This document shows positions 1,369 through 17,776 of a DNA stretch of 64,000 nt, one piece after another. The position numbers and the translations under genes are program-made. The stretch comes from Orenia marismortui DSM 5156 (lineage in GTDB: Bacteria > Bacillota > Halanaerobiia > Halobacteroidales > Halobacteroidaceae), in assembly GCF_000379025.1 (NCBI RefSeq), contig NZ_KB900623.1, positions 309,327-373,326 on the forward strand, given 5' to 3'. Under the pieces are notes generated by a model. It did no database searches. It was given only the letters and a program-made list of their open reading frames with translations, and had not been told where the DNA came from. The first letter of the stretch is position 1; every line of letters starts with the position of its first letter.

Positions 1369-2148
1369 ATGGAAGAATTACTAAATAAGACCCGTAAGAT
1401 AAATAGATTAATTCAACGTTCTGCTGGACATCCTGTGAATTATGATGAAATGTCTCAAGTCTTAAGTGAAACTATAGAAGCTAACATTTATATTGTTAAT
1501 GAAAGAGGAAAGTTGTTAGGCTATACTTTGGTTGATGCTTTTGAATGTGATCTAATGTTTGAAGAAGTTATTAGTTCTGAGGAGTTCCCTAAAAGCTATA
1601 ATGATTGGTTATTAGGTATTTATCATACTAGATCTAATTATGAACAAAAAGAAGGTTTATGTGTATTTAAGGATCATGAAGATTGTATTTTTAAGCATAA
1701 GCTAACTACTGTAGTTCCTATTAATGGTGGTGGCGAAAGACTAGGAACGTTAATTGCAGCTAGGTTTGGCCAAGAGTTTGGTTCTAGTGATTTATTATTA
1801 GCTGAGTATGGAGCAACTGTAGTTGGTATGGAGATTTTGAGATTAAGAAGTGAAAAGATGGAAGAGGAAACAAGGAAAGAAGCGGCTGTTGATATTGCCT
1901 TAGAGACGCTTTCTTATTCTGAATTAGAAGCTGTTGAACATATTTTTGAAGAATTAGATGGTACAGAAGGTCTATTAGTGGCTAGTAAAATTGCTGATAG
2001 AGTGGGGATAACTCGTTCAGTTATTGTTAATGCTTTAAGAAAGTTTGAAAGTGCTGGTGTAATTGAATCTAAATCTTTGGGGATGAAAGGTACTTACATC
2101 AAAATTTTAAATGATAGATTGCTTGATGGCTTAGAAGAAATTAAATAG
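1369..2148 (+). CDS. codY: CodY, GTP/branched-chain amino acid-responsive global repressor
   Basis: Cytoplasmic transcription factor that in Firmicutes senses isoleucine, leucine and valine plus GTP and represses nutrient-scavenging and stationary-phase genes. At 259 residues it has the standard length. An N-terminal GAF ligand domain covers about residues 1-155, followed by a linker helix. The C-terminal winged helix-turn-helix lies at about 200-245 and includes [18 protein letters not shown], the family's recognition region. Its start is preceded by a GGGGGA-type ribosome site. It is followed by a strong terminator and then the flagellar operon. CodY represses fla/che genes in some Bacillus and Clostridium species, but I saw no convincing CodY box in the flagellar promoter region. 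Confidence 0.97.
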
Positions 2149-2190
2149 CCTTAACAAAACACAGGTTTTGCCTGTGTTTTGTTAAGGCTA
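2146..2190 (+). terminator. Perfect 20-bp stem terminator after codY
   Basis: The arms 2146-2165 and 2171-2190 are perfect reverse complements around a 5-base TTTTG loop. The left arm includes the codY stop codon. There is no long T run after the stem, although T-rich blocks lie inside it. It separates codY from the flagellar operon. Confidence 0.8.
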
Positions 2191-2257
2191 TAAAATAGTA
2201 ATTTGTAGTTTTGTGGAAAATAATTACTTATATTAGTTTTATTTGCAAGAAAAAAAT

Positions 2258-2286
2258 TTGACATTAAACTCGAATATTTATAAAAT
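2258..2286 (+). promoter_or_regulatory. sigma-A-type promoter of the flagellar operon
   Basis: TTGACA (2258-2263, perfect consensus) and TAAAAT (2281-2286) are separated by 17 bp. The expected start near 2293 lies about 20 bases upstream of the riboswitch aptamer. I saw no SigD-type element (TAAA-N15-GCCGATAA) here, so the operon is probably driven by the housekeeping sigma factor and gated by the RNA switch. Confidence 0.8.
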
Positions 2287-2313
2287 TATTATGGTATTAC
2301 ATAAAAATAAAAT

Positions 2314-2397
2314 AATTAGCAAATCTATCGAAAGGTAGTGGCGCAAAGCTATGGGTCTAAAGATATTTATCAAATATCCATGATTGCCAGGTTGCAC
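2314..2397 (+). ncRNA. GEMM-I (cyclic-di-GMP-I) riboswitch aptamer
   Basis: The hallmark blocks of the GEMM-I class occur in order. They are GCAAA (2319-2323), a first hairpin closed by a GAAA tetraloop (CTATC-GAAA-GGTAG, 2325-2338), the linker GGCGCAAAGC (2340-2349), and a second hairpin with the tetraloop-receptor strand GGGTCTAA (2353-2360) and closing CCATGA. The 3' block GCCAGGTTGC (2386-2395) ends the aptamer. GCAA (2319-2322) can pair with TTGC (2392-2395) as the P1 helix. The aptamer sits between a strong promoter and an intrinsic terminator, upstream of flgB. This matches the known arrangement of Cd1 before flgB in Clostridioides difficile. Ligand could be c-di-GMP or, in the GEMM-Ib variant, 3',3'-cGAMP; I could not settle the specificity-determining base by eye. 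Confidence 0.92.
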
Positions 2398-2402
2398 ACT
2401 TT

Positions 2403-2435
2403 AAAAGCTATTGGTGAGGCAACTGTAGCTTTTTT
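2403..2435 (+). terminator. Riboswitch expression platform: intrinsic terminator
   Basis: AAAAGCTA (2403-2410) pairs with TAGCTTTT (2426-2433), with an inner TTG/CAA pairing, followed by TTTTTC. GCAACTG (2419-2425) inside the hairpin can instead pair with CAG-G-TTGC of the aptamer 3' strand (2388-2395, one bulged G). That gives a plausible antiterminator that competes with P1. Ligand binding would lock P1 and favour termination, an OFF switch for motility. This is inference from the pairing. Confidence 0.82.
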
Positions 2436-2436
2436 C

Positions 2437-2602
2437 TTTATGTAAATTGATATTTTATTTTGATTAAACCTACCTACATACATAGAATTAAAAAGAAGGA
2501 TTGGATATATTTTTTTGAAGGAATTTTAGTAGATAAGTCGAAATATTGAAAGTAGAGTATTTAATGTGTTTATATATGACAAAGTTAGGGAGGATATACT
2601 TA
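2437..2602 (+). other. Remainder of the flgB leader, no further feature seen
   Basis: An AT-rich untranslated stretch of about 165 bases lies between the riboswitch terminator and the flgB start. An open frame from 2546 runs into flgB but has no ribosome site of its own. I see no second promoter of sigma-A or SigD type that I would defend. Confidence 0.4.
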
Positions 2603-3010
2603 ATGAAAATCTTTGATAATAGAAATTTTGGGGTGTTGGAGAAAAGTTTAGATGGGCTTGCTAAAAATCATCAGGCTATATCAAATAACATATCAAATGC
2701 AGATACTCCAGGCTATAAAAGGAAGTATGTAAGTTTCAGAAAAGAATTATCTGATTTATTAGAAAATAGAAATGACTTAAAAGTAACAAACAAAAAGCAT
2801 ATTGCTATTAATTCTAAGGATATAAGTTCTTTTAAGGCAAGAGTTCATACAGAAGAAAATACTTCTGTTAGAAATGATGATAATAATGTAGATATAGATG
2901 CAGAAATGGCTATGCTTGCTAGAAACACTCTAGAATATCAAGCGGTAGTAAAACAAATTAGTAATCAATTTAAGAGGTTAGACTCAGTAATACAAAAGGG
3001 AGGTAGGTAG
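2603..3010 (+). CDS. flgB: FlgB, flagellar proximal rod protein
   Basis: Structural subunit of the proximal rod, exported by the flagellar type III apparatus. The ATG at 2603 is chosen because GGGAGG (2588-2593) precedes it at good spacing and the protein then begins MKIFDNRNFGVLEKSLDG, matching the family N-terminus. The frame is open back to 2546, but those codons lack a ribosome site. At 135 residues it is normal in length. The conserved rod motif NISNADTPGYKRK is near residues 29-41. The C-terminal amphipathic helix includes LARNTLEYQAVVKQIS. It is the first gene of the operon and flgC follows after 2 bases. Confidence 0.95.
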   Translation: MKIFDNRNFGVLEKSLDGLAKNHQAISNNISNADTPGYKRKYVSFRKELSDLLENRNDLKVTNKKHIAINSKDISSFKARVHTEENTSVRNDDNNVDIDAEMAMLARNTLEYQAVVKQISNQFKRLDSVIQKGGR

Positions 3011-3012
3011 GA

Positions 3013-3438
3013 ATGGGATTATTCAATAATTTTAACATAAGTGCTTCAGGGTTGACAGCTCAAAGGTTAAGAATGGATTTGATTTCTAGTAATATTGCTA
3101 ATGCTAATACAACTAAAGCTGAAGATGGTAAGCCTTATCGTCGTAAGCTTCCTGTATTTAGTGCAAAATTAAAAGATGAAATCAATAAGTTTAATACTGG
3201 TGAAGATGTAGGAAATGGAGTAGAGGTATCCTCTATTCAAGAGAGCAAAGAACCTTATAAGTTAGTTTATAATCCTAATCATCCAGAAGCTAATGAATCA
3301 GGATATGTCGAAATGCCTAACATTAATATTGTTTCTGAGATGACAGATATGATTTCTGCTACTAGAGCATATGAAGCAAATGTGACTGCTTTAAATTCAG
3401 CTAAGTCAATGGCTCAAAGTGCTTTGAAAATTGGCTAG
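3013..3438 (+). CDS. flgC: FlgC, flagellar proximal rod protein
   Basis: Second proximal rod subunit, 141 residues, the usual size. The N-terminal helix SGLTAQRLRMDLISSNIANA and the C-terminal helix with TRAYEANVTALNSAKSM are the paired coiled-coil segments found in rod and hook proteins. The ATG sits 2 bases after the flgB stop, and the ribosome site GGGAGG overlaps the end of flgB, so the two are probably translationally coupled. Nothing in the sequence departs from the family. Confidence 0.96.
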   Translation: MGLFNNFNISASGLTAQRLRMDLISSNIANANTTKAEDGKPYRRKLPVFSAKLKDEINKFNTGEDVGNGVEVSSIQESKEPYKLVYNPNHPEANESGYVEMPNINIVSEMTDMISATRAYEANVTALNSAKSMAQSALKIG

Positions 3439-3457
3439 TTTAGGGGAGGAGAATTAA

Positions 3458-3748
3458 ATGAAAATAGATCAAATTAGTAATCATAGCTTAATGAAGGTAG
3501 ATAAGCTTGATGAAAAGAAGGATAAGTATCCTTCTTTTGCTAATGTTATGAAAGAATCTTTGCAAAAAGTTAACAGTTTACAACATGCTGCGAATAAAGC
3601 AGGGGAAGATTTGGCATTGGGTAAAGCTGAAAATATTCATGAAGTTATGATTACTGCACAGAAAGCTAAACTATCACTAGATTTAACTACAACTATAACT
3701 AAGAAAGCTATAGATGCCTATAAAGAAGTTATGAGGATACAGGTTTAA
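3458..3748 (+). CDS. fliE: FliE, hook-basal body adaptor
   Basis: Small export-dependent protein that links the MS ring and export gate to the rod. It has 96 residues. The C-terminal half, with HEVMITAQKAKLSLDLTTT and ending KEVMRIQV, is the conserved FliE signature. GGGGAGGAG precedes the ATG. It is placed between flgC and fliF as in most Firmicutes fla operons. Confidence 0.95.
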   Translation: MKIDQISNHSLMKVDKLDEKKDKYPSFANVMKESLQKVNSLQHAANKAGEDLALGKAENIHEVMITAQKAKLSLDLTTTITKKAIDAYKEVMRIQV

Positions 3749-3779
3749 TGTACTTGTTCAGTGAGATTGGGGTGTAAAT

Positions 3780-5339
3780 ATGGTTAAAAATTTCTCGCAA
3801 ATAAAAAAGCAGATACAAAATTTGTGGAACAATTTTAATAAAAAAGCTAAAATAGTGATTATTGTATCAGCTCTTGTTACATTCATTGGAATGTTATTGC
3901 TGGCTCATTGGGCTAGCAAACCAGAATATATGGTATTATTTAATAATTTATCTATGGAGGATGCAGGGGGAATTATTAATAGTTTAGATGAAAAACAAAT
4001 TACTTATCAGCTGAAAGATAATGGTTCTACTATTTTAGTTCCTCAAAAGAATGTTCATAAGTTGCGGTTAGATTTAGCAAGTCAAGGACTTCCAACTGGA
4101 GGGAATGTAGGTTTTGAAATTTTTGACCGCAATCAGATCGGGAGTACTGATTTTGAACAGAAGGTTCAATTTAACCGTGCTTTATCTGGGGAATTAGCTA
4201 GAACAATTAAGCAGCTTGATAATGTTCTATCTGCTAATGTAAGAATTACTCCTAGTGAATCAAGTATATATAAAGAGCAAGAGGAACCTGCTAAAGCATC
4301 TGTAGTATTGAAGTTAAAGCAATATACCAAATTAACTACTAAAGAAGTGAAGTCTATTGCTAATTTGGTTGCTAGTAGTGTAAATGGTTTAGACCCTACT
4401 AGAGTTACTATTGTAGATACAACTGGTAATTTATTATCGGCTAAGCTCAAAGAAGATGATGAAAAGGCTGATATTAGTGATAAGTTAGCTTTACAGAATA
4501 AATTCGAAGAGGCTATTGAAAAAGATTTGAATGTAATGTTAACTAAAGTGTTAGGGATGGGTAATTTTTCTTTAGTTGTTAATGCGACTTTAAATTTTGA
4601 TCAAAGAAATATAGAAAGTAAAAGGTATGAACCTGTAGTTGATGATGAGGGAATTATACGTAGTAAACAATCAAAAACAGAGAGTAGTCAAGGTATGACT
4701 ACTACCCCAGAAGGAGTTCCTGGAACTACATCTAATTTACCTCAATATAAAATTAATAATCAGGATAGAACAGAACATGATAAAGAAGAAGAAATTGTAA
4801 ATTATGAGATCAATGAAGAAGTAGAAAAATATGTACAAGCTCCTGGAACACTAGAGAAATTATCAGTAGCAGTAACTGTAGATACGCCTGATGGCCAATT
4901 AGATGCTGCGAAACAAGAAGCAATCACTAATCTTATTTCAGCTGCTGTAGGTTATGATGTGAATCGTGGTGACCAGATTACAGTCATCGGTATGGCTTTT
5001 GATAATAGTTTAGAAGAAGAGGTTATCAATGCTGAAGCTAGTGAAGCAGCAAAGAGAAGAACTATACTATTATCTTTATTGATTGGTATAGCAATATTAA
5101 TTGCTGTGCTATTGATAGTGTTATATAGAAAACGAAGAAATGAAATGGGTAGTGAAGCTGAGGTAGGACAAAATGTTGATTATCTAATTGATGAGGCTGA
5201 AGAAGAATTTGCAGTTGGAGATAATTTAACTAGTGAAGAAAGAGAAAGGCAGAAATTACAAAATCAATTACGCAATATAATTAAAGATCAACCAGAAGAG
5301 ATAGCTGGATTAATTAAAAGTTGGCTATCTGAAGATTAA
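3780..5339 (+). CDS. fliF: FliF, MS-ring protein
   Basis: Forms the MS ring in the cytoplasmic membrane, the base on which the C-ring and export gate assemble. At 519 residues it is normal for Firmicutes. Transmembrane helix 1 is at about residues 24-43 and helix 2 at about 428-449. Between them lie the periplasmic ring-building motifs, including the conserved LPTGGNVGFEIFD stretch and NVLSANVRITPSE. The cytoplasmic tail after residue 450 is acidic and ends with the FliG-binding helix (PEEIAGLIKSWL). fliG follows after 14 bases. Confidence 0.97.
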   Translation: MVKNFSQIKKQIQNLWNNFNKKAKIVIIVSALVTFIGMLLLAHWASKPEYMVLFNNLSMEDAGGIINSLDEKQITYQLKDNGSTILVPQKNVHKLRLDLASQGLPTGGNVGFEIFDRNQIGSTDFEQKVQFNRALSGELARTIKQLDNVLSANVRITPSESSIYKEQEEPAKASVVLKLKQYTKLTTKEVKSIANLVASSVNGLDPTRVTIVDTTGNLLSAKLKEDDEKADISDKLALQNKFEEAIEKDLNVMLTKVLGMGNFSLVVNATLNFDQRNIESKRYEPVVDDEGIIRSKQSKTESSQGMTTTPEGVPGTTSNLPQYKINNQDRTEHDKEEEIVNYEINEEVEKYVQAPGTLEKLSVAVTVDTPDGQLDAAKQEAITNLISAAVGYDVNRGDQITVIGMAFDNSLEEEVINAEASEAAKRRTILLSLLIGIAILIAVLLIVLYRKRRNEMGSEAEVGQNVDYLIDEAEEEFAVGDNLTSEERERQKLQNQLRNIIKDQPEEIAGLIKSWLSED

Positions 5340-5353
5340 TAGGAGGGAAAGGA

Positions 5354-6355
5354 ATGGCAAATTTAACTGGAAAAGAAAAAGCAGCTATTCTATTAGTTTC
5401 CTTAGGACCAGATTCATCAGCAGAAGTTTTTAAACATCTAAATGATGATGAAATAGAAGATTTAACTTTGGAAATAGCTAATTTAGATAAAGTCTCTACA
5501 GATGTAAAAGATCAAGTTTTAGATGAATTTCATCAGATGTGTGTTGCTTATGATTATATTAGCCATGGTGGAATGGAATATGCTAAAGAAGTCTTAGAAA
5601 AAGCTTTAGGGCAAAATAAAGCTAATGATATAATTGATCGTTTAACTGCTTCATTACAAGTAAGACCTTTTGATCAGTTAAGAAAGACTGATCCTAGTCA
5701 GATCTTAAACTTTATTCAAAATGAGCATCCTCAAACCATTGCCTTAATTTTGGCTTATTTAGATACTGATCAATCTGCTTCTATTCTATCTTCTTTGCCT
5801 TATGATAAACAGACTGAAGTAGCCAAAAGAATTGCTACTATGGAAAGAACTAGTCCTGATGTTATTAAAGAGGTAGAGCGGGTATTAGAACAGAAATTAT
5901 CATCATTAATGACTAATGAGTATACTGTTGCTGGTGGAATAGATTCGATTGTAGATATCTTAAACCTATCTGATAGAGCAACTGAGAAGAAGATTCTAGA
6001 AGATCTTGATGAACAAAATCCAGAATTAGCTGAAGAAATTAGACAAAAGATGTTTGTGTTTGAAGATATCACATTATTAACAGATAGAGATATTCAAATT
6101 CTATTACGTCAGGTTGATACAGATGATTTATCATTAGCTCTTAAAACAGTTAGTGATGAAGTGGCTGAAAAGATATTTACTAATCAATCTAAGAGGGCTT
6201 CTGAGATGTTAAAAGAGGATATAGAATACTTAGGACCTGTTAGAATAAGTGATGTAGAGGAAGCACAACAAAAAATTGTTAATGAGATCAGAAAATTAGA
6301 AGAATCTGGAGAAATTATCATTAATCGTGGCGGAGAGGATGAGGTTGTTGTCTAA
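5354..6355 (+). CDS. fliG: FliG, C-ring rotor/switch protein
   Basis: Rotor component that couples stator ion flow to torque and carries the switch. It has 333 residues. The middle domain carries the EHPQTIALILAYL motif at about residues 124-136, which binds FliM. The C-terminal domain holds the charged torque helix (DRDIQILLRQVDTDDLSLAL). Ring-interface residues around MFVFEDI are intact. AGGAGGG precedes the ATG. Its end overlaps the start of fliH by 8 bases if fliH begins at 6348. Confidence 0.97.
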   Translation: MANLTGKEKAAILLVSLGPDSSAEVFKHLNDDEIEDLTLEIANLDKVSTDVKDQVLDEFHQMCVAYDYISHGGMEYAKEVLEKALGQNKANDIIDRLTASLQVRPFDQLRKTDPSQILNFIQNEHPQTIALILAYLDTDQSASILSSLPYDKQTEVAKRIATMERTSPDVIKEVERVLEQKLSSLMTNEYTVAGGIDSIVDILNLSDRATEKKILEDLDEQNPELAEEIRQKMFVFEDITLLTDRDIQILLRQVDTDDLSLALKTVSDEVAEKIFTNQSKRASEMLKEDIEYLGPVRISDVEEAQQKIVNEIRKLEESGEIIINRGGEDEVVV

Positions 6356-7142
6356 TGTTATAAAGTCAGGTCAAGTTAAATCAGGCCAAAAGTTTATAAT
6401 CAATAATAGATCTGATCATAAAATAATAAAAGACAATATTGATAATAATCTTGAAGAGCAAATTGAAGAGGAAAATTATAATCTTAAACAACAAATTTTG
6501 ATTGATGCTCAAAAAAAAGCCGATGAAATAGTAGCTGATGCCCAGGCTAAAGCTGAAAAAATAATTAACCAGTCAAAAGAAGAGGCTGAAAAGATCAAGT
6601 CTAATGCAGAAGCAGAAGCTAATGAAGTTATTAAAACAAATAAAGAAAAAGCTTATAAACAGGGGATTGAATTAGGAAAAGAAGAGGGATTAAAACAGAT
6701 AGTAGAAAAATTTAATAGTCTGACAAATACTCTTCACGATAGTGTTGAGGAATTTGATCAAGAAATTAATGAAAGAATGGCAGTGATAAGAGAAGATATA
6801 GTTAAATTATCAATTGCTATAAGTAGAAAAATTATTGGACAAGAATTACAACTTGATTCCGAATTAATAAAAAATATTATCCAAGATACAATCAGATTAT
6901 TAGATGGCGAAGAAGAAATTAGTATCAGAGTTAGTCCTGGTGATATAGAGTTATTAGGAGATTATAAAGAGCAACTAATAGCTTTAAATAATGGCCTAGA
7001 AAAGATAAAAATTATTAGTGATGAAAGCATCAAAGAAGGTGGATGTATTATTGAAACAGATTTTGGTGGCTTTGATGCTAGTATTGACTCTCAATTAAAA
7101 GAAATTGAAAGCAGATTATTGGAAGTGAATAATGATGAATAA
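6348..7142 (+). CDS. fliH: FliH, export ATPase regulator
   Basis: Cytoplasmic partner that holds the FliI ATPase near the export gate. The reading frame is open from a GTG at 6327. I prefer the TTG at 6348 because GGAGAGG (6332-6338) lies 9 bases upstream and the protein then begins [10 protein letters not shown], the usual FliH opening. ATG 6339 is too close to that site. From 6348 it has 264 residues. There is a long alanine/glutamate-rich coiled coil (about residues 40-110) and a C-terminal domain with [14 protein letters not shown] and [17 protein letters not shown], typical of FliH/V-ATPase E subunits. It overlaps fliG at its start and fliI at its end. Confidence 0.92.
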
Positions 7143-8466
7143 ATCATTATTTGATTTTGATATAGCTAAGTTGGTTAATGATTTAAGTTATATTAATCCA
7201 ATTAAATCTTTTGGTAAAGTAAAAAGAGTTGTAGGATTAACTATTGAATCTGAAGGTCCTAATGTGCATTTGGGAGAAAAGTGTTTGATTAAACCTAAAC
7301 TTAGTTCAGAGATTATTCAAGCTGAGGTAGTAGGATTTAGAGATAATAGTGTATTATTAATGCCTTTAGGTGAAATGGATGGTATTGGTCCAGGTTGTAA
7401 AGTCTTTTCTACTGGAGAACCATTGAAAGTTAAGGTTGGTCCTGAATTATTAGGGCATGTTTTAGATGGTTTAGGTAATCCTATGTCAGACTTTTCTGTT
7501 GAAGGTAAGTTGGAAGAATATTCAGTTTATAATTCTCCTCCTAATCCCTTGACCAGAAAGAGAATTACTGAACCATTGTCTTTAGGGATCAGAAGTCTTG
7601 ATGGTTTACTAACTTGTGGGAAAGGTCAGAGAATGGGTATTTTTGCAGGAAGTGGCGTGGGAAAGAGTACAACTTTAGGAATGATTGCACGTAATACAAA
7701 TGCGGATGTTAATGTTATTGCTTTAATTGGAGAGCGTGGAAGAGAATTACGTGATTTTATTGAAAAGGATTTGGGAGAAGAAGGATTAAAGCGTTCTGTA
7801 GTAGTTGTAGCTACTTCTGATCAGCCCGCCTTAATTAGATTAAAAGGTGCTTTGGTAGCCACTACTATTGCAGAGTATTTTAGAGATCAAGGTAAAGATG
7901 TTATGTTTATGATGGATTCTGTAACTCGATTTGCTATGGCTCAACGTGAAGTTGGTCTGGCTGTAGGTGAACCACCTGCTACACGAGGATATACTCCGTC
8001 AGTATTTGCTCTGTTGCCAAAGTTAATGGAAAGGGCAGGTACTAATGAAAAGGGAACAATGACAGGCCTTTATACAGTATTGGTAGAAGGGGATGATATG
8101 AATGAACCTATTGCTGATACAGTTAGAGGTATTTTAGATGGACATATTGTTTTATCTAGGGATTTAGCAGCCAAAAATCACTATCCTGCTGTAGATATAT
8201 TAGAGAGTACTAGTAGAGTGATGAATGAAATTGTAAGTGAAGAACATAAGGAAGCTGCTAGTCAGTTAAGAAGTGTATTGGCTACTTATGAAGAAGCTAA
8301 AGATTTAGTTACTATTGGAGCATATGAACCAGGTAGTGATCCTAAATTAGATTATGCCTTAGATAAATTGGATGCAGTTAATAACTTTTTAAAGCAGGGG
8401 ATTAATGAGAACAGTAGTTATAGTGATACTGTTAATTCTTTGATGAATATCTTTGCTGGAGAGTGA
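7132..8466 (+). CDS. fliI: FliI, flagellar type III export ATPase
   Basis: Energises and orders export of rod, hook and filament subunits. It has 444 residues and is homologous to the F1 beta subunit. Walker A (AGSGVGKST) is at about residue 172, and Walker B with [14 protein letters not shown] is near residue 262. The signature [20 protein letters not shown] follows. The start is ATG 7132 or the adjacent ATG 7135, both inside the end of fliH; the 11-base overlap suggests translational coupling. Confidence 0.97.
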
Positions 8467-8471
8467 TATAA

Positions 8472-8933
8472 TTGAAAAAATTTAATTTTCGATTACAGTC
8501 AGTTTTAGATCTAAAAAAGCAAGAAGAAGAGGCAATACAAAAAGAGTTAGCTAGATTAATACAAGAATATCGAAAAATTGAGAAGAAGATTGATAACTTG
8601 AAAGCAGAGAAGAAGAATATTCAACAGAAGTTAGAAAAGGAAGAAGGAATCAAAATAAATCCATCGCAAGCTGTAAGAACAAGAAATTATATTAAATTTT
8701 TAAGAGATGAAATTGAAGAGTTAACCTTAAAGCTAAACTATTGGGAAGATGAAATAAAGAAGTGCCGTCAAAACTTAATCTCTAAAACTAAAGAGAAAAA
8801 ATCTCTAGTTAAACTAAGGGATAGAAAATATGATGAGCATTGGCAAGAAATGTTATCTGAGGAACAGAAGTTAAATGATGAGTTAGCTATTAATAAGTTT
8901 AATTATAAAGGTAATAGATCGCAAGGCTTATGA
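8472..8933 (+). CDS. fliJ: FliJ, export chaperone escort
   Basis: Cytoplasmic coiled-coil protein that activates the export gate and escorts chaperones, structurally like the F1 gamma stalk. It has 153 residues, nearly all predicted long charged helices. The N-terminus KKFNFRLQSVLDLKKQEEE is the conserved family opening. It starts with TTG at 8472, with GGAGAG inside the end of fliI as ribosome site. Identity rests on the N-terminal motif, the coiled-coil make-up and the position after fliI. Confidence 0.9.
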   Translation: MKKFNFRLQSVLDLKKQEEEAIQKELARLIQEYRKIEKKIDNLKAEKKNIQQKLEKEEGIKINPSQAVRTRNYIKFLRDEIEELTLKLNYWEDEIKKCRQNLISKTKEKKSLVKLRDRKYDEHWQEMLSEEQKLNDELAINKFNYKGNRSQGL

Positions 8934-9017
8934 GAGCAATTTTAATATATATATTTATATTGTTGATTAATTTGAATAATAGTTTATTAAATAGTAGTTA
9001 AGCAGGAGGAGCTAATA

Positions 9018-9563
9018 ATGAAAAAGAAGATACTCCTAGGACTAGTAGTATTATTAGTATTAGCAGCTTTAAGTTTGTTCTTACTAGATTATTTTAAAGT
9101 TTTTACCATCGAGGATATAAAAAAGGCATCATTATCTAAGGTAGAAAGTATTCCAGCTGTAGATAAATATCTAGTCACTAAAAACGAAAATAAAGCATTA
9201 GAAGATCAAGTAAAAGAGCTTAAAGGAAATTTAGAAAAGTTGCAACAGCAGAATCAGAAATTATTTGAAGAATTAAAGACTAGAGATAATATTATATCTG
9301 AACAAAAAAATAATATTGCTGATTTGAATGCAAATATAAAAAATATTAAAACTGACAAGATCGCTTATGAAGAAAAAACAAAAAAATTAGCAGATGTATA
9401 TAGTGAAATGGACGCAGAAAAATCTGCTCAAATAATACCTAAGTTAAATGAAAAGTTGGCTATTGATATATTAAATCAGATAGATGAAGAAATAGTAGCA
9501 GAAATCTTATCTAGTATGGATAGTGGGATAGCTGCTGATATCTCAACAAGATTATCTTATTGA
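9018..9563 (+). CDS. MotE-like flagellar membrane protein (MgtE-N domain)
   Basis: It has 181 residues: an N-terminal membrane helix at about 5-25, a coiled coil (about 60-130), and a C-terminal helical domain (LADVYSEMDAEKSAQIIPKL onward) resembling the MgtE intracellular N domain. This architecture is found in MotE-type proteins, which sit between fliJ and fliK in many fla operons and in alphaproteobacteria act as a MotC/stator chaperone. AGGAGGAG precedes the ATG. An 84-base AT-rich gap separates it from fliJ. The role in Firmicutes is less clear; the name is from domain layout and position. Confidence 0.75.
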   Translation: MKKKILLGLVVLLVLAALSLFLLDYFKVFTIEDIKKASLSKVESIPAVDKYLVTKNENKALEDQVKELKGNLEKLQQQNQKLFEELKTRDNIISEQKNNIADLNANIKNIKTDKIAYEEKTKKLADVYSEMDAEKSAQIIPKLNEKLAIDILNQIDEEIVAEILSSMDSGIAADISTRLSY

Positions 9564-9577
9564 AAGGAGGTGAAAAG

Positions 9578-10921
9578 ATGACAGCTATGAATGCAGTTAT
9601 GAATACTAATCTTCAGTCTGCTCCAAAGTCAAATAATAAAAGGATTAAAGAAGAAGAGGGTAATAGTGATTTTGTAACTTCTCTTGAGAAAAAGATTGAT
9701 CAATCTTCTAAGAATAGTTCTGTAGACCAACAGCAAGAAAAAGCTGATATAGATGTAGATGAGAAAGATATTCAGAAGATAGAGAATTTGTTAAAGGGAG
9801 ATTTGGAGAAGGTAGATGAAGATGATTTAGAAAATATAGTTTCTATTTTAAATAAGATTATAAAACAATTAGATTTACCAAATGAGTCACTACAAGGTGT
9901 AAAAGTAGTAAGTGATGAAGTATCACAAAAATCAAAAGGTCACCTATTACTTCAAAATCCTTTAAAAGAATTAGAGCTTATAAAGGAAAGGTTAACTTCA
10001 TTATTAAAAAATAGCCAGACTAATGAAGGTAAAATCAATATAGGCAAAAACTTAGAAGGTGAATTATCTACTCTCAAAGAGTTGATTAGTAATTTGAAAG
10101 TTAAGGATATTAGTGATAGTACTTCTGAAAAACAAAGATTAATTCATCACAAAGCAATGAATCAATCTAGTATAGCTAAATTAAGTAGATATAATCAAAA
10201 TAAATTTAGATATAACACTAATGTAAGAAGTGAAGAAGAATCTATACATTTGAATAAAAAAGGAAATGTTGAAGGTAGTAAAATCCTAAATATAGAGACA
10301 AATGATAACAGATTATTGTCTGAAGGTTTAGAAGATGTTAAGACTAAGAATGCTGATAATTTAGTAAAAGATATAGATGTGAATATTAATCATAATATTC
10401 TAGCTAATGAGTCTGAGGTTTCTAATGGTATCAATAAACTTCAGTCTAACAAAGAGGTCAATTTTAAGAATATAGTTAGTCAGGTTAATGAGAAAATTGA
10501 TTTGACAACTGTTAATAAAGGTAAAGAAATTACTATTGAGCTAAAGCCAGAATCATTAGGTAGATTACATGTTAAAATTACTCTTGAAGAAGGACATTTA
10601 TCAACTAAAATTTTAGCTGAAAATGGACAAGTTAAAGAGCTATTAGAGGGTAATATATTCAAGTTGCGCGAGAGTTTAAGTCAGAAGGATTTACAAATTG
10701 AGACCCTAGATGTTTCTACAGCTTTTGATGGAGAAGATTTATCTCAAGCCTTTAGTGGAAATGAACACTCTGCATTTAATGAGGAGCAAAGCAAGAATAA
10801 TAGCGGAAAATTTAATTTGGATGATCTAGATGAATTAGCTTTAACAGTAGAAGACACTATTACTGAAGAAGCTAAAGGTGAAAATAATGGTTTAAATGAT
10901 AAATTGAATTATATTGTTTAG
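9578..10921 (+). CDS. fliK: FliK, hook-length control protein
   Basis: Secreted ruler that ends hook growth and switches export to filament substrates through FlhB. The start is ATG 9578, with a near-perfect AAAGGAGG at 9563-9570; codons back to 9560 are spurious. It has 447 residues. Residues 1-290 are low-complexity, polar and poorly conserved, as expected of a ruler. The C-terminal Flg_hook domain (about 300-400) contains ITIELKPESLGRLHVKITLE and KLRESLSQKDLQIETLDV. It is followed by an acidic tail. flgD is next. Confidence 0.9.
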   Translation: MTAMNAVMNTNLQSAPKSNNKRIKEEEGNSDFVTSLEKKIDQSSKNSSVDQQQEKADIDVDEKDIQKIENLLKGDLEKVDEDDLENIVSILNKIIKQLDLPNESLQGVKVVSDEVSQKSKGHLLLQNPLKELELIKERLTSLLKNSQTNEGKINIGKNLEGELSTLKELISNLKVKDISDSTSEKQRLIHHKAMNQSSIAKLSRYNQNKFRYNTNVRSEEESIHLNKKGNVEGSKILNIETNDNRLLSEGLEDVKTKNADNLVKDIDVNINHNILANESEVSNGINKLQSNKEVNFKNIVSQVNEKIDLTTVNKGKEITIELKPESLGRLHVKITLEEGHLSTKILAENGQVKELLEGNIFKLRESLSQKDLQIETLDVSTAFDGEDLSQAFSGNEHSAFNEEQSKNNSGKFNLDDLDELALTVEDTITEEAKGENNGLNDKLNYIV

Positions 10922-10936
10922 AAGGAGGGGGATAGA

Positions 10937-11395
10937 TTGAGTACAGTAGAAGGTACATCATATTCAAGTGTTGAAGATATTCGAAATTCTGGAAATGCTA
11001 CTACAAAAACTAATAAAAATGAGTTGACTACAGATGATTTTTTAAGTTTGTTAGTAACTGAATTACAATATCAAGATCCAACTGAGCCAATGGAAAACAG
11101 CCAAATGATGTCACAAATGACAGAATATACTTCTTTGCAGCAATCTGATCAATTGACTAAAACTATAGAAAACTTAAATACTAGCATATCTAGTCTTATA
11201 AATTATCAACAGTTTTCACAAGCAGGTCAATTAATAGGTAAAGAGGTTACTGTAGAACAGACAAATTCGGAAAGCGAAGAGGTAGAAACTATAACTGGAA
11301 AAATTGAAAAAGTAGATCTGTCTGATGGAAATATTAATGTTGTTATTGACGGTGAATCCTACTCAGTAGCTAATATACAAGAGATTTTGTCATAG
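10937..11395 (+). CDS. flgD: FlgD, hook cap/scaffold protein
   Basis: Caps the growing hook and is required for FlgE polymerisation. It has 152 residues, the short Firmicutes form. The conserved N-terminal region includes DDFLSLLVTELQYQDPTEPM followed by NSQMMSQMTEYTSLQQ. A TTG start at 10937 lies 9 bases after GGAGGGGG. The small C-terminal beta domain ends in YSVANIQEILS. It sits between fliK and the flagellar operon protein, as in Bacillus. Confidence 0.95.
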   Translation: MSTVEGTSYSSVEDIRNSGNATTKTNKNELTTDDFLSLLVTELQYQDPTEPMENSQMMSQMTEYTSLQQSDQLTKTIENLNTSISSLINYQQFSQAGQLIGKEVTVEQTNSESEEVETITGKIEKVDLSDGNINVVIDGESYSVANIQEILS

Positions 11396-11409
11396 AAGGA
11401 GGATTATGT

Positions 11410-11796
11410 ATGAATAAAATTTATTCAAATCGCTCCTTACATTTATCACAACAGTCTCATCGAAAATCTGATAATATTGATAAAAATAGTTCAAGTGATA
11501 GCTTTAAAGCTTTGCTGAAAAATAAATTGGATGATAATGATGGTTTGAAGTTATCCAAACATGCTGTTAAAAGACTGCGGTCAAGAAAGATAGGGTTTAC
11601 AAACCGAGATATTGATAAATTAGAAACAGCAATAGATAAGGCAAAGAGCAAGGGTGCTAAGGAGTCTTTAGTTTTAATTGATAACAATGCTTTTATTGTT
11701 AGTGTCAAAAATAATACTGTAATAACTGCAATGGATAAGGATAGTATGGAAGAAAATCTATTTACAAATATAGATAGTGCCATTGTGATGAAATAA
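11410..11796 (+). CDS. Flagellar operon protein (TIGR02530-like)
   Basis: This is a 128-residue protein of the family routinely found between flgD and flgE in Firmicutes fla operons. The recognisable part is residues 45-128: LSKHAVKRLRSRKIGFTNRD, then LVLIDNNAFIVSVKNNTVIT, and a final TNIDSAIVMK. The N-terminal 40 residues are polar and variable. The molecular role is not established; position suggests hook assembly or hook-gene regulation. AGGAGG precedes the ATG. Confidence 0.85.
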   Translation: MNKIYSNRSLHLSQQSHRKSDNIDKNSSSDSFKALLKNKLDDNDGLKLSKHAVKRLRSRKIGFTNRDIDKLETAIDKAKSKGAKESLVLIDNNAFIVSVKNNTVITAMDKDSMEENLFTNIDSAIVMK

Positions 11797-11925
11797 CTGG
11801 ACCCTAACGGGAGGTTATAATCGCTGATTGATAGAGGCGATAGAAGAATTTAATTTATAATTAAAAGTAAATATAGTTTTTGAATGATTTAAATTATTGC
11901 TTTAAAAACAAGGAGGTTTTGATAG
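11797..11925 (+). other. Gap before flgE with an unused GGGAGG and a small hairpin
   Basis: The 129-base gap holds GGGAGG at 11809-11814, followed only by very short frames (about 9-10 codons from TTG 11828), and a weak ATCGC/GCGAT hairpin near 11820-11841. The flgE ribosome site is AAGGAGG just before 11926. A leader peptide or decayed gene is possible but not supportable. Confidence 0.3.
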
Positions 11926-13248
11926 ATGTTAACTTCATTATATTCTGGAATATCAGGATTAAAAGCTCATACTAAAAAGCTTGATGTTATTGGTAATAAT
12001 ATTGCTAATGTAAATACTACTGGGTTTAAGAGTAGTAGTGTCAATTTTACAACTATGTTAAATCAAACTATCAAAGGGGCTACTTCTGCCCAAGATGGAC
12101 GTGGAGGTACTAACCCTCAACAGGTAGGATTAGGGGTTACAATAGGTAGTATTGATCAAAATATGAGTGGAGGAAGCTTACAATCTACTGGTGTTACTAC
12201 AGACTTAGCAATTGAAGGTGATGGGTTCTTCGTCTTAGAGAACGGAGGTAGCAGTTTATATACTAGATCTGGTGCTACTACATTTGATGAAGATGGTAAT
12301 CTGGTTAATTCTGCCAATGGACTTTATGTACAAGGTTGGATGGCTGGTGCTGACGTAGATGGAGATGGTAAAAAAGATGTCGATACTAATGGTGATTTAG
12401 AAGCAATATCATTAACTTCATCGATGCCAGCTAGAGCCAGTGAAAAGATTAATTGTACTGGTAATTTAGATGCTAGTGCAGAAATAGATGATAACCATAC
12501 TACTTCAATTTCTGTTTATGATTCTCTAGGAACTAAACATACTGTTGAATTAGAGTTTAAAAAAGTTGCTAATAATGATTGGAGTTATACAGTAACTAAT
12601 GTTGATGGTGCTAATATTGACAGTGGAGATACAGGAACTATTCGTTTTGATACTAATGGAGATGTTCAAGGGATAGATGCTGGTAATACTGGTACCTTTA
12701 CTAATTTAGATGGTGACGGAAATGGCAATATTACTGATGCAGAATTAAAGGCTGCTTTGCCTAAGTTAGAGGTTAGTCCGACTGGAGGAGCAGCACTTAA
12801 TCAAACTATTACTCTTGATTTTAGTGAAATAACCCAATATGGTGATGTTGCTATGAGTGCTAAAGCAGAAACTGCAGATGGTTATGCTGCAGGTGAACTA
12901 GAAGGTATTACTATTGATAGCGCTGGAGTAATAACTGGTTCTTATAAGAATGGTCAGCTTGAGACTATAGGGCAAATAGCAATGGCCACTTTTAATAACC
13001 CTGCTGGTTTAAGCCAAGAGGCAGGTACTATGTATGCAGAATCTAATAACTCAGGTCAGCCTGTAATTAGTACAGCAGGTGTAGGAAATGCTGGAGTTAT
13101 TAAACCAAGTAACTTAGAAATGTCTAATGTTGATTTGTCTAAAGAACTTACTGAAATGATTACTACTCAACGTGGATTTCAAGCTAACTCAAAGATAATT
13201 ACAACAGGAGATCAAATATTAGAGCAATTAGTAAATCTTAAAAGATAA
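11926..13248 (+). CDS. flgE: FlgE, flagellar hook protein with EF-hand-like loops
   Basis: Major hook subunit, 440 residues. The N-terminal rod/hook motif SGISGLKAHTKKLDVIGNNI and the C-terminal helix (MSNVDLSKELTEMITTQRGF, then IITTGDQILEQLVNLKR) are standard. Internal motifs TDLAIEGDGFFVLE and the FlgE D2 core are present. Two inserted acidic segments stand out. Residues 143-151 read DVDGDGKKD. Residues 262-273 read DGDGNGNITDAE, which fits a complete EF-hand loop (D1, D3, N5, G6, I8, E12). Such loops could bind calcium in the external hook domain. A strong hairpin follows the gene. Confidence 0.95.
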   Translation: MLTSLYSGISGLKAHTKKLDVIGNNIANVNTTGFKSSSVNFTTMLNQTIKGATSAQDGRGGTNPQQVGLGVTIGSIDQNMSGGSLQSTGVTTDLAIEGDGFFVLENGGSSLYTRSGATTFDEDGNLVNSANGLYVQGWMAGADVDGDGKKDVDTNGDLEAISLTSSMPARASEKINCTGNLDASAEIDDNHTTSISVYDSLGTKHTVELEFKKVANNDWSYTVTNVDGANIDSGDTGTIRFDTNGDVQGIDAGNTGTFTNLDGDGNGNITDAELKAALPKLEVSPTGGAALNQTITLDFSEITQYGDVAMSAKAETADGYAAGELEGITIDSAGVITGSYKNGQLETIGQIAMATFNNPAGLSQEAGTMYAESNNSGQPVISTAGVGNAGVIKPSNLEMSNVDLSKELTEMITTQRGFQANSKIITTGDQILEQLVNLKR

Positions 13249-13263
13249 ATTATTTTCATTTAA

Positions 13264-13305
13264 ATCAATGAGTAAAGGGATTAATCCCTTTACTCCTAAA
13301 TTGAT
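13264..13305 (+). terminator. Perfect hairpin after flgE without a T tract
   Basis: The 26-nt sequence 13270-13295 is a perfect palindrome (GAGTAAAGGGATT and its complement), extended by flanking ATCAAT/ATTGAT. No U run follows and the operon continues, so it may be a leaky terminator or an mRNA 3'-end stabiliser that raises flgE over downstream genes. Confidence 0.55.
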
Positions 13306-13363
13306 ATAAACTAAGAATTTTATGGTTTATTTGCTGTTTTATATTAGATTAATAAAGGGTGTG

Positions 13364-13561
13364 GTGATTATTATAGAAGTAACTAGGTTAAATGATTCTA
13401 AGTTAGTTATAAATGCAGAGTTAATTGAGACTATAGAATCAACGCCTGATACAGTAATTACATTAACTACTAATCATAGATTGATAGTTAAAGAAGATAT
13501 TGATGAAGTGGTTGAAAAAGTAATAGCCTACAAAAGAAAGGTTGCTTTTCAGCCAGAATAA
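13364..13561 (+). CDS. FlbD/SwrD family small flagellar protein
   Basis: Small protein (about 63-65 residues) with the family opening EVTRLNDSKLVINAELIETI and TVITLTTNHRLIVKEDIDE. In Bacillus subtilis the homologue SwrD (YlzI) increases motor power; here it lies directly before motA-motB. The frame is open from 13322 but the extra N-terminus is not conserved. AAAGGG at 13354-13359 fits GTG 13364 (4 bases) poorly, and ATT 13367 or 13370 by distance. Homologues begin MI-[EK]-VTRLN, so a rare ATT start at 13370 is conceivable. Confidence 0.85.
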   Translation: MIIIEVTRLNDSKLVINAELIETIESTPDTVITLTTNHRLIVKEDIDEVVEKVIAYKRKVAFQPE

Positions 13562-13576
13562 AAGTGAGGTGACAGA

Positions 13577-14362
13577 ATGGATTTAGCATCAATTGTTGGA
13601 TTATTATTGGCAACAGTATTAGTTTTAGCTGGTATGTTTGGCCAAGGGAATATTATGATGTTCATTGATCCTTTCTCTATGTTAATTGTTTTTGGAGGAA
13701 CGATAGGAGGAGTTATTTTATCTTATTCCTTTAAGCAGCTAAAAAATGCTGTAGCAGCAATGAAAATTGTATTTTCAGATAAGGATAATGAAGCATCAGG
13801 TATCATTTCTATTTTGGTAAGTTTTGCAGAGAAAGCTAGAAGAGAAGGGTTATTAGCTCTAGAAGAAGAAGTATATGAGTTAGATGATGATTTTTTGAAG
13901 AAAGGGGTTCAATTAATTGTTGATGGTACTGATCCTCAGTTAGTAAAAAGTATTATGGAAACAGAGCTTAATTTTTTAGAAGAAAGACATTCAATTAATA
14001 AAGGTGTCTTTGATAAAGGTGCTGAATTATCTCCAGCCTTTGGTATGATAGGTACCTTAATTGGATTGATTGGTATGTTAGCTAACTTAGATGACCCTGG
14101 ATCATTGGGTGCAGGTATGTCTGTAGCCTTAATTACTACCTTATATGGATCTATGATGGCTAATATGATATTTATTCCTGTTGCCGAAAAATTAAGGATA
14201 AAAAGTGAGGAAGAAATTTTATCTAAAGAAGTAATGATTGAAGGTATTTTATCAATTCAAGCTGGGGAGAATCCAAGAATTGTAGAAGAAAAACTTAAAG
14301 CTTTCTTATCACCAAGCTCAAGAAGTGGGATTAGCGCTGAAGAAGAGGCTGGTGAATATTAA
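13577..14362 (+). CDS. motA: MotA/PomA-family stator protein, probably Na+-type
   Basis: Membrane stator subunit that, with MotB, conducts ions and pushes on FliG. It has 261 residues with four membrane helices (about 5-25, 33-52, 152-172, 183-205) and the large cytoplasmic loop between helices 2 and 3. The N-terminus (MDLASIVGLL, then MFIDPFSMLIVFGGT) resembles PomA of sodium-driven motors more than proton-type MotA. AGGTGACAG precedes the ATG. Its last base is the first base of motB. Confidence 0.93.
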   Translation: MDLASIVGLLLATVLVLAGMFGQGNIMMFIDPFSMLIVFGGTIGGVILSYSFKQLKNAVAAMKIVFSDKDNEASGIISILVSFAEKARREGLLALEEEVYELDDDFLKKGVQLIVDGTDPQLVKSIMETELNFLEERHSINKGVFDKGAELSPAFGMIGTLIGLIGMLANLDDPGSLGAGMSVALITTLYGSMMANMIFIPVAEKLRIKSEEEILSKEVMIEGILSIQAGENPRIVEEKLKAFLSPSSRSGISAEEEAGEY

Positions 14363-15087
14363 TGGCACGCCAAAAGAAGAGTAAAAATGATGATGGTGGA
14401 GGCGCTGGCTGGCTAGCTACCTATGGAGATATGATGACCTTATTACTATGTTTCTTTGTATTATTATATTCTTTTTCTAGTATAGACGCTGAAAAATTTA
14501 GAATGATGATGGATGGGCTGCAAGGGAAGTTAGGAGTTTTAACTGGAGGAAAAACTATATCTTCTGCTGAATTAATAGAATCAGGTTTAGACGCTAATAG
14601 TCCCAGTTATAGACAGCTTAGTAATATGCAGAACACTATTTCACAATATATTGATAAGCAAGGACTACAAGATGATATTAAGTTGGAAATTACCGATAGA
14701 GGTTTAACTATTCGTTTTAGTGGAAAGATATTATTTGATTTGGGTAGGGCAGAGATTAAAAATAATGGTCAAGGAATTTTAGATAATATTGCTGGATTTA
14801 TCAAAAGTATGCCTAATAGTATAGTAGTAGAAGGTCATACTGATAATTGGCCTATTAGTAATTCACAGTTTCCTTCCAACTGGGAATTGTCTACCACAAG
14901 AGCAACTAATGTAATAAGGTACTTTATAGAAGAAGGGAATATTAATCCTGCACGACTATCTGCAGCAGGATATTCCAAATATAAACCGATCAAGTCTAAC
15001 AATACTAAAGAGAATAGAGCTATTAACCGTCGAGTTGATGTGATAATTTTAAGGATGGACCAGAAGGAGGGAATTATTAATGAGTGA
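14362..15087 (+). CDS. motB: MotB/PomB-family stator protein, probably Na+-type
   Basis: It has 241 residues. A single membrane helix at about 16-42 carries the ion-binding aspartate D23 (ATYGDMMTLL). It is followed by LLCFFVLLYSFSSID, close to the LMCFFVLL segment of sodium-type PomB. The C-terminal OmpA-like peptidoglycan-binding domain (about 110-235) contains VEGHTDNWP, NWELSTTRATNVI and NRRVDVIIL. The ATG at 14362 overlaps the motA stop by one base. Sodium coupling is inferred from these similarities and the suspected halophilic host. Confidence 0.94.
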   Translation: MARQKKSKNDDGGGAGWLATYGDMMTLLLCFFVLLYSFSSIDAEKFRMMMDGLQGKLGVLTGGKTISSAELIESGLDANSPSYRQLSNMQNTISQYIDKQGLQDDIKLEITDRGLTIRFSGKILFDLGRAEIKNNGQGILDNIAGFIKSMPNSIVVEGHTDNWPISNSQFPSNWELSTTRATNVIRYFIEEGNINPARLSAAGYSKYKPIKSNNTKENRAINRRVDVIILRMDQKEGIINE

Positions 15088-15520
15088 TGAGAAGAAAGGT
15101 TTGAATTTGATAATAGTAGTTGTTTTAACTGTATTATTAGCTACAGGATCTTCTTATTTTATGTTTACTAAATTAGGAGGAATGAATAATAACAAAGAAG
15201 AAGTGAATAAAGCATCTAAAGAATTAGGACCGACTACATCTATAGGTGAATTTTTAGTTAATTTAGCTGATGGTAGAAGATTTATCAAAGTTAATATTAC
15301 TTTAGAAGTTAGTAATGATGAGGTTGTTAGTGAAATAGGAGAAAGAACACCACAAGTCAGAGATGCTATTATATCTATTTTAAGAAATAAAGATACTAAA
15401 AATATTAATTCAAATGATGGAGTTAGAAAGTTAAGAATGGAGATTATGGATCAAATTAATCAGAATTTATTAAAGGGGAAAATAACAAATGTCTTCTTTA
15501 CTGAATTTGTTGTTCAATAA
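15080..15520 (+). CDS. fliL: FliL, stator-associated membrane protein
   Basis: Single-pass membrane protein around the stator that modulates motor torque. It has 146 residues. A membrane helix covers about 10-29. The periplasmic domain contains TTSIGEFLVNLADGRRFIKV and ends with the hallmark NVFFTEFVVQ. It overlaps the motB end by 8 bases, with GAAGGAGGG inside motB as ribosome site. Confidence 0.95.
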   Translation: MSDEKKGLNLIIVVVLTVLLATGSSYFMFTKLGGMNNNKEEVNKASKELGPTTSIGEFLVNLADGRRFIKVNITLEVSNDEVVSEIGERTPQVRDAIISILRNKDTKNINSNDGVRKLRMEIMDQINQNLLKGKITNVFFTEFVVQ

Positions 15521-15587
15521 TATACTTATATAAAAAGAATGGACTAATTATAATTTTGATATATTTTATAAAAGTAGAGTTGAATTA

Positions 15588-15627
15588 TTAATTAATAATT
15601 AAATTTGCAAATTTAATTATTAATTAA
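15588..15627 (+). repeat. 40-nt perfect AT-rich palindrome before fliM
   Basis: Bases 15588-15607 and 15608-15627 are exact reverse complements, centred on TTTGCAAA, with no mismatch. It lies in the 122-base fliL-fliM gap, the largest gap between flgE and sigD apart from the gene start regions, and ends about 6 bases before the fliM ribosome site GGGGG. It could be an RNA hairpin controlling fliM translation, a processing site, or a DNA operator. Confidence 0.75.
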
Positions 15628-15642
15628 GTAGGGGGAAAAATT

Positions 15643-16653
15643 ATGTCATCAAATAGAGTTTTATCCCAAAATGAAATAGATTCATTATTAGATGCATTAT
15701 CATCGGGTGAGATGGAAGCAGATGAATTAAAAGATCAAGAAGATGAACTAGTAGAAGCCTATGATTTTAAGCATCCTAACAAATTATCTAAAGACCAATT
15801 AAGAACTTTAAGGATGGTTTATGAGGGTTTTGCAAGACTATTAAGTACTAGTATTTCTACTCAATTAAGAACAATGACCAAAGTTGAACTTACATCAATT
15901 GATCAATTATCTTATGAGGAATTTATTAGTTCTTTACCTCAACCAACTATTTTATCAGTTTGTGATTTCTATCCTCTACATGGAGAATTTCTTATTGAGA
16001 TTAACCCTAAAATAGGATATGCTATTATTGAACGTTTTTTTGGTGGAGATGCAGGTGATAGTTCAGGTACACTTAGAGAGTTCACTGATATTGAAGAAGT
16101 AGTATTGAAGAAGATTAATAAGACCATTTTGGATAGTTTTAGTGAATCATGGGAAAATGTTGTAGATTTAAGACCGAGAGTGAAAGAATTAGAATCTAAT
16201 CCACAATTCACCCAGATTGTTCCTAATAATGATATGGTTATATTAGCTACTTTTGAAGCAAACATTGGTAAGGTTGATGGTTTAATCAATATAAGTATTC
16301 CTTATATTGTTTTAGAACCGATTGTTTCTAAATTAAGTGCCCAGTATTGGTTCTCTTCAACTAGAAAGGATTCTGCAGCCGAAAGCTTAAGCAAGATCAA
16401 GAAAAGACTTGGTAAGGCTAAGTTGCCTGTTGAAGCTGAATTAGGAAAAGCCAATATAAAGATTGCTCAATTGTTACAGTTGACTACTGGTGATGTAATA
16501 AAGTTAGATAATAAAGTCAGCGACAACTTATCACTATATATAAATAAAAAAGAGAAATTTTTAGTAAAGCCTGGTAAGTGCGGAAGTAAATTAGCGGTTG
16601 AAATTACTTCTGCTATTTCTGAAGATGAGTGGGAGGATGAAGACGATGAATGA
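15643..16653 (+). CDS. fliM: FliM, C-ring switch protein
   Basis: Switch component that binds CheY-P. It has 336 residues. The N-terminal CheY-binding segment is intact (VLSQNEIDSLLDAL, about residues 5-18). The middle CheC-like domain runs about 45-230 and includes the fold motif LRTLRMVYEGFARLLSTSIS and IERFFGGDAG. The C-terminal SpoA/FliN-like domain is at about 250-325. The retained CheY-binding peptide implies that a CheY exists elsewhere in the genome, as none is in this operon. It overlaps fliY by 8 bases. Confidence 0.96.
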   Translation: MSSNRVLSQNEIDSLLDALSSGEMEADELKDQEDELVEAYDFKHPNKLSKDQLRTLRMVYEGFARLLSTSISTQLRTMTKVELTSIDQLSYEEFISSLPQPTILSVCDFYPLHGEFLIEINPKIGYAIIERFFGGDAGDSSGTLREFTDIEEVVLKKINKTILDSFSESWENVVDLRPRVKELESNPQFTQIVPNNDMVILATFEANIGKVDGLINISIPYIVLEPIVSKLSAQYWFSSTRKDSAAESLSKIKKRLGKAKLPVEAELGKANIKIAQLLQLTTGDVIKLDNKVSDNLSLYINKKEKFLVKPGKCGSKLAVEITSAISEDEWEDEDDE

Positions 16654-17776
16654 TGCTTTATCACAAGAAGAAATAAATGCATTACTGAATAGTGATGTTG
16701 ATGATAATGATGTTGACAAGCAAGATATATTAACTGATTTAGAAAAAGATGCTATTGGAGAAGTTGCTAATATATCAATGGGCTCTGCTGCTACAGCTTT
16801 ATATGGGTTGTTAAATCAGAAAGTAGAGATTACAACTCCAAGGGTAGAACTAAGTACAGTAGAAGAACTAGTTGATAGCTATAGTAGACCATGTGTAGTG
16901 GTTGATGTTCAATATGTTGAAGGATTAAGGGGAAATAACCAGTTAATCCTTGAATCAGGAGATGCAGCTATTATTACAGACTTAATGATGGGAGGAGATG
17001 GAACAGAACCGCCTGAAGATTTAACAGAGTTGCATATAAGTGCTGTAGGAGAGGCTATGAACCAAATGATGGGTTCAGCATCCACCTCTATGTCTGATTT
17101 TTTTGAGGGAGATAAAGTTAATATTTCTCCTCCTAAAGCAGAATTATTAGAATTAAGTAGTGATATCTTCAATTTAGAAGGTGTTGAAGATGATGATATA
17201 GTTGTTAAGATTGTTTTCGATATGCATATTGGAGATTTAATTGATAGCCAAATTATTCAAGTTATGACTGTAGAGTTTGCTAAGAAGCTGGCTGATGCAT
17301 TAATGGGAGGATTTGACTCTGAAGAAGAAAATATAGATGAGTCTCCAAATAAAGCGGCACAACAACAACCAATGCAACAGCAAGCAATGCAACAGCAACC
17401 AATGCAACAACAACCAATGCAACAACAACCAATGCAACAACAACCAATGCAACAACAAAATGTTGAGGTACAGCAAGTAGAGTTTAATCAGTTAGGCAAT
17501 GCAGCAGCTAATGGTTTAAATAATGATATCAGATTGATCCATGATGTTCCTTTAGAATTGACTGTTAGGTTAGGTAAGACTAGGATGTCAATTAAAGATA
17601 TCTTAGAGTTAGGACCAGGATCAGTTGTTGAATTAGATAGATTAGCTGGTGAAGCTGTTGATTTGTTAGTTAATGGTAAATTAATAGCTAAAGGAGAAGT
17701 AGTTGTTATTGATGAAAACTTTGGCTTTAGGGTTACAGATATTGTTAGTTCTCAAGAAAGGTTGAGTAAACTATAA
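16646..17776 (+). CDS. fliY: FliY, CheC-type phosphatase fused to FliN
   Basis: C-ring protein that also dephosphorylates CheY-P in Bacillus. The start is ATG 16646, with GGGAGG at 16631-16636; the frame extends upstream to 16598 but only inside fliM. It has 376 residues. It opens with LSQEEINALL, a FliM-like CheY-binding peptide. Two CheC phosphatase motifs are both intact: E39-x-x-N42 and E136-x-x-N139. The C-terminal FliN domain covers about 290-370. Between them lies a run of about six QQQPM pentapeptides (residues about 239-271), a flexible linker encoded by a 15-nt tandem repeat. Confidence 0.96.
   Translation: MNDALSQEEINALLNSDVDDNDVDKQDILTDLEKDAIGEVANISMGSAATALYGLLNQKVEITTPRVELSTVEELVDSYSRPCVVVDVQYVEGLRGNNQLILESGDAAIITDLMMGGDGTEPPEDLTELHISAVGEAMNQMMGSASTSMSDFFEGDKVNISPPKAELLELSSDIFNLEGVEDDDIVVKIVFDMHIGDLIDSQIIQVMTVEFAKKLADALMGGFDSEEENIDESPNKAAQQQPMQQQAMQQQPMQQQPMQQQPMQQQPMQQQNVEVQQVEFNQLGNAAANGLNNDIRLIHDVPLELTVRLGKTRMSIKDILELGPGSVVELDRLAGEAVDLLVNGKLIAKGEVVVIDENFGFRVTDIVSSQERLSKL
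17359..17458 (+). repeat. 15-nt tandem repeat encoding QQQPM in fliY
   Basis: About six and a half copies of a 15-base unit (CAACAACCAATGCAA register) with a few synonymous changes (CAG/CAA) and one proline-to-alanine change (GCA). The unit is a multiple of three, so copy-number slippage would keep the frame. The last four units are nearly identical, indicating recent expansion. Confidence 0.9.

Follow-up and report, generated by a model that had tools for sequence, protein, structure and literature searches.

A c-di-GMP-I riboswitch before the flgB operon of Orenia marismortui, with predicted OFF logic and a candidate sigma-H-type promoter downstream of its terminator

The flgB operon of Orenia marismortui DSM 5156, a bacterium of the class Halanaerobiia and no close kin of C. 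difficile, analyzed here in a 64,000-nt window (the whole stretch of DNA under study, to which coordinates refer), is preceded by a c-di-GMP-I (GEMM-I) riboswitch of an already known class. In our view, the sigma-A leader of this operon is fairly likely to be a c-di-GMP-I transcriptional OFF switch that is bypassed by a sigma-H-type promoter situated between the terminator and flgB. This would make the operon a natural example of two promoters in which the effect of a second messenger could be overridden by a stationary-phase sigma factor, and C. difficile would not be alone in placing flgB operons under c-di-GMP-I control.

The leader and the flagellar gene run

The RF01051 covariance model matches positions 2308–2399 (+ strand) over its full length (1–87 of 87) with 67.5 bits (cmscan, E 4.7e-11), compared to the curated gathering score of 35. 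The GEMM-I aptamer claimed in an earlier note on this DNA, for which this search had been suggested, is thereby confirmed, and it is the single GEMM-I match of the whole 3.46-Mb genome. Upstream of it lies a sigma-A-type promoter (2258–2286, +), with TTGACA at –35 (2258–2263), a 17-nt spacer and TAAAAT at –10 (2281–2286), as the same note had described; it agrees with the consensus in 11 of 12 positions, ranks first among 66 promoter-like matches in the region 2100–18000, and would start transcription near 2293. Downstream, an intrinsic terminator (2403–2437, +) consists of a hairpin with arms 2403–2415/2422–2433 (–9.3 kcal/mol) and a T-run, and the strand GCAACTG, to which the note had assigned a switching role, is indeed found at 2419–2425.

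The first gene of the operon, flgB (2603–3010, +; ATG at 2603), was identified by Pfam Flg_bb_rod and comparison with relatives. It opens a flagellar gene run of approximately 37 ORFs (2603–32338, +), delineated by profile matches, ORFs and a terminator scan, that ends with a YceG-like gene and is followed by rpsB; no clear internal terminator is seen on the + strand between 2603 and 32338. The run comprises flgBC, fliEFGHIJ, fliK, flgD, flgE, motAB, fliL, fliM, fliY, fliOPQR, flhBAFG, two YcgR/PilZ genes, cheC, cheD, sigD/fliA, fapA and small ORFs, part of the names being derived from gene order and reading of ORF sequences. As the sigD/fliA gene is found at 28230–29012, sigD belongs to the flgB operon, in line with the earlier reading. 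The two YcgR-like PilZ genes are adjacent (25122–26595, with starts at 25122 and 25900), and their presence within the operon means that c-di-GMP may affect both its transcription and the motor.

Predicted switching logic

When mapped to the Rfam columns, positions 2388–2394 fall within the P3 3' strand, and 2395 is C92 of the ligand pocket. Hence the segment 2388–2395, previously taken for a P1 strand pairing with the terminator, had been given the name of the wrong helix. P1 itself is nearly absent, as its two flanks yield +0.2 kcal/mol, weaker than in 95% of 102 related aptamers, and the base of P2 carries a U-U mismatch.

In the ligand-free ensemble (ViennaRNA), an antiterminator accounts for about 80% and the terminator for about 16%, and the antiterminator is never (0%) combined with an intact P3. 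The minimum free energy is –27.3 kcal/mol, compared to –23.7 kcal/mol with the aptamer enforced. Both in this structure and in the ensemble, the antiterminator has two aptamer strands: the 5' side of P3, AAAGCTAT (2345–2352, +), which includes A47 and pairs with 2425–2432, and the 3' side of P3 together with C92, GGTTGC (2390–2395, +), which pairs with 2419–2424 with probabilities 0.63–0.80, so that both A47 and C92 are buried. The sequence AAAGCTAT recurs in the 5' arm of the terminator, and due to this duplication the 3' arm can pick either copy. When one P3 pair is stabilised by –2 to –4 kcal/mol as a stand-in for the ligand, the terminator fraction increases from 0.17 to 0.66–0.98. The computed folds thus show the exclusivity of the Cd1 type: the antiterminator and intact P3 do not co-occur, and the terminator is compatible with the aptamer. 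The proposal of the earlier note that the ligand favours termination holds as a prediction, given the mutually exclusive folds and the shift in the bonus series.

Under the proposed mechanism, in the absence of ligand the segment 2419–2432 would pair into the aptamer and polymerase would read through, and with ligand bound P3 would stay folded, the freed segment 2403–2433 forming the terminator. These modelled folds are probably best read as OFF logic of the kind known from C. difficile Cd1. The antiterminator pairing exceeds chance only marginally, the observed pairing between aptamer and platform being matched by 22 of 400 and 31 of 400 randomised platforms, and the whole leader is no more stable than its shuffles (z –0.26). 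The GUUGC/GCAAC complement is also present in homologues from the family (L032, L041 and L034). As L041, L034 and several flgB riboswitches from other families fold into the terminator at equilibrium, thermodynamics alone is no proof of a shared mechanism. Strand sequestration via a perfect complement was considered as a general feature of 103 riboswitches and rejected, with 3.97 nt observed versus 3.74 nt and thus no real excess.

The closest known system is Cd1, a proven OFF switch in the equivalent position in C. difficile (PMC9262584, PMC5386303, PMC11477304). Both are GEMM-I riboswitches located, with a sigma-A promoter, before a flgB operon containing sigD (PMC9262584, PMC5386303), and the terminator-based OFF logic, with an antiterminator burying the ligand-pairing C (PMC9262584, PMC5386303), is predicted here as well. 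They differ in position 20, which is G in Cd1 (G11 in Cd1 numbering) and A in the window aptamer, in the near absence of P1 in the latter, and in the leader length (496 nt in Cd1 and approximately 310 nt here).

The ligand pocket and the probable ligand

In the Vc2 numbering, position 20 corresponds to A2318, A47 to A2345, C92 to C2395, and position 93 to A2396. Hence A47 and C92 are kept, and G20, the position of the G-alpha contact in GEMM-I, is replaced by A, a change that had been overlooked before. The A at position 93 could pair with U19. Among the aptamers read, 13 others share A20, which therefore represents a tolerated variant rather than a failure of RF01051 membership. It was also considered as the mark of a flagella-specific specificity class; this was rejected, as A20 is found in 6 of 22 flgB-linked aptamers versus 8 of 80 others, mostly in one family.

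Geobacter GEMM-Ib riboswitches that respond to 3',3'-cGAMP, e.g., pilM, also have A in the position equivalent to G20 and the same overall fold; pilM is an ON switch, whereas the platform in the window reads as OFF. Geobacter cGAMP is made by a Hypr GGDEF enzyme, and no counterpart of this enzyme has been detected in the O. marismortui genome. Of the GEMM-Ib features, A20 is present and a cGAMP source (a Hypr GGDEF with Ser, or a CD-NTase) was not found in this genome: none of the 13 readable GGDEF domains, a count that leaves aside two weak partial matches, has Ser at the base-contact position, 12 of them carrying the canonical Asp and one Asn, and SMODS nucleotidyltransferases have no match. 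As neither type of cGAMP synthase that was sought has been found, c-di-GMP stays the likely ligand, judging by the gene content. The guanine-contacting Asp is replaced by Asn in the domain encoded at L105 (G000:C1:55301–55771), which reads GHPAGN ... GGEEF.

Two alternatives concern what the aptamer binds, if anything. Under one of them, A20 marks a natural variant with shifted or relaxed specificity, and 3',3'-cGAMP, or both dinucleotides, controls the flagellar operon. The replacement of G20 by A in GEMM-I is known to permit cGAMP binding (PMC6274999, PMC7288161), and the Geobacter GEMM-Ib riboswitches select cGAMP (PMC6456294); if this reading were true, the A20 variant found upstream of flgB in O. 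marismortui and four further Halanaerobiia genomes would place flagella under cGAMP, alone or with c-di-GMP. However, besides the lack of Hypr-type GGDEF domains and SMODS matches noted above, Asp is found in all 29 GGDEF domains read from the A20-bearing relatives (about a quarter of the matches in their genomes), and the G11-to-A change in Cd1 has no large effect on c-di-GMP binding (PMC9262584), which makes cGAMP control very improbable. The other alternative is a decaying, ligand-insensitive riboswitch, with flgB promoters unregulated by ligand. The A20 replacement, the P2-base mismatch and the exceptionally weak P1 are all compatible with decay, as is the fact that this genome has its sole GEMM-I, compared to seven in the congener G001. 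Yet the aptamer is intact in its other conserved blocks and in C92 and A47, as is the terminator, the sigma-A-type promoter is close to the consensus, and the core can suffice for ligand binding in both Cd1 and pilM, though far more weakly in pilM (PMC9262584). We consider decay improbable, and prefer a functional c-di-GMP switch, for which the combination of A20 with a near-absent P1 suggests weak binding, perhaps with reduced c-di-GMP affinity. The natural A20 aptamers form a set for direct measurement of ligand choice.

The second promoter and the distribution of switches

Candidate sigma-H promoters were identified with a PWM built from 29 C. difficile sigma-H promoters (PMC7438776, Table 3), so the consensus is that of C. 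difficile; in the entry CD1317, one leading base triplet is mistyped, outside the scored boxes. The top match of the 64-kb window is located at 2518–2545 (+), between the terminator and flgB, 57 nt upstream of the flgB ATG. It has the form AAGGAATT-N11-GTCGAAATA, in which the AGGA (–35) and GAA (–10) boxes are spaced as in the consensus, and scores 18.8 bits, compared to the median of 16.3 in the training set (p=0.0025, with resampled sequence as the reference). Used as a check on this genome, the PWM also predicts a site 59 nt upstream of spo0A. The sigH gene is present (333 bits versus the cut-off of 294.8); its presence was dropped as a correlate of the site, since sigH-family matches are found in all genomes searched.

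The AGGA and GAA cores are retained in all eight family genomes compared (O. marismortui and G001–G007), including G003–G007, which have no flgB riboswitch. The motif is absent in four Halanaerobiia genomes (G019, G032, G038 and G045) where the riboswitch abuts flgB. The GEMM-I aptamers of these four resemble the one in the window in the gene position and in A20, U19 and A93, but are located approximately 60 nt upstream of flgB and have no sigma-H-type motif, so that in these genomes flgB may be gated by the switch alone.

The flgB operon thus probably has a second, switch-independent start, presumably used by sigma-H. From the promoter at 2518–2545, mRNA of the operon would be made whatever the c-di-GMP level; with this start lying beyond the terminator, the switch would gate the sigma-A transcript only. 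The earlier note had supposed instead that the riboswitch is the sole control, all transcription of the operon starting from 2258–2286 and c-di-GMP silencing some 36 genes at one point. Several observations speak for that simpler scheme, namely the one near-perfect sigma-A promoter, the lack of clear terminators inside the long gene run, and the situation in C. difficile, where a single sigma-A start precedes the flgB operon and no promoter activity is seen between Cd1 and flgB (PMC7438776, PMC5386303). Here, on the contrary, this interval contains the predicted sigma-H-type promoter, which scores above the training median and is retained by every family member in the comparison, whether or not the switch is present. 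A conserved predicted promoter 3' of the terminator means that the switch is probably not the operon's single off-button, and we regard sole control by the riboswitch as unlikely.

The second-best sigma-H-type match of the window is at 34284–34311, just upstream of pyrH-frr. In C. difficile, frr is sigma-H dependent (PMC7438776).

GEMM-I aptamers are found within approximately 1 kb upstream of flgB in at least 19 of the 47 genomes with a FlgB match in this search. Carboxydocella, one Syntrophomonadaceae MAG and one Symbiobacterium MAG likewise carry one. Within the family their distribution is patchy, as they are present in O. marismortui, G001 and G002, and absent in G003–G007. The aptamers of G001 and G002 (L082:1899–1988 and L083:2871–2959) belong to another subtype, with G20, and are located approximately 800–920 nt upstream of flgB, between codY and the flgB promoter, with a terminator of their own; they thus lie upstream of a similar sigma-A-type promoter, whereas the aptamer in the window lies downstream of its promoter. 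Transfer from the A20 flgB switches of other genomes was considered as an origin of the latter; in the aptamer tree, its closest neighbours are different switches, with weak tree support.

Three c-di-GMP-II riboswitches have also been identified in the O. marismortui genome, L117 (G000:C1:583362–583448), L119 (G000:C1:824114–824199) and L118 (G000:C4:148723–148806), one of them preceding the gene for a PilB/MshEN pilus ATPase, and another one, the gene for an Ig-like (Big_4) lipoprotein. The combination of GEMM-I at flgB with c-di-GMP-II at the pilus ATPase and lipoprotein genes resembles the reciprocal swim/stick layout of these riboswitches known from C. difficile. In two other family genomes, GEMM-I aptamers (L032:3186–3277 and L041:10775–10861) precede the gene of a methyl-accepting chemotaxis protein, with a small gene and the large gene of a non-ribosomal peptide synthetase next to it.
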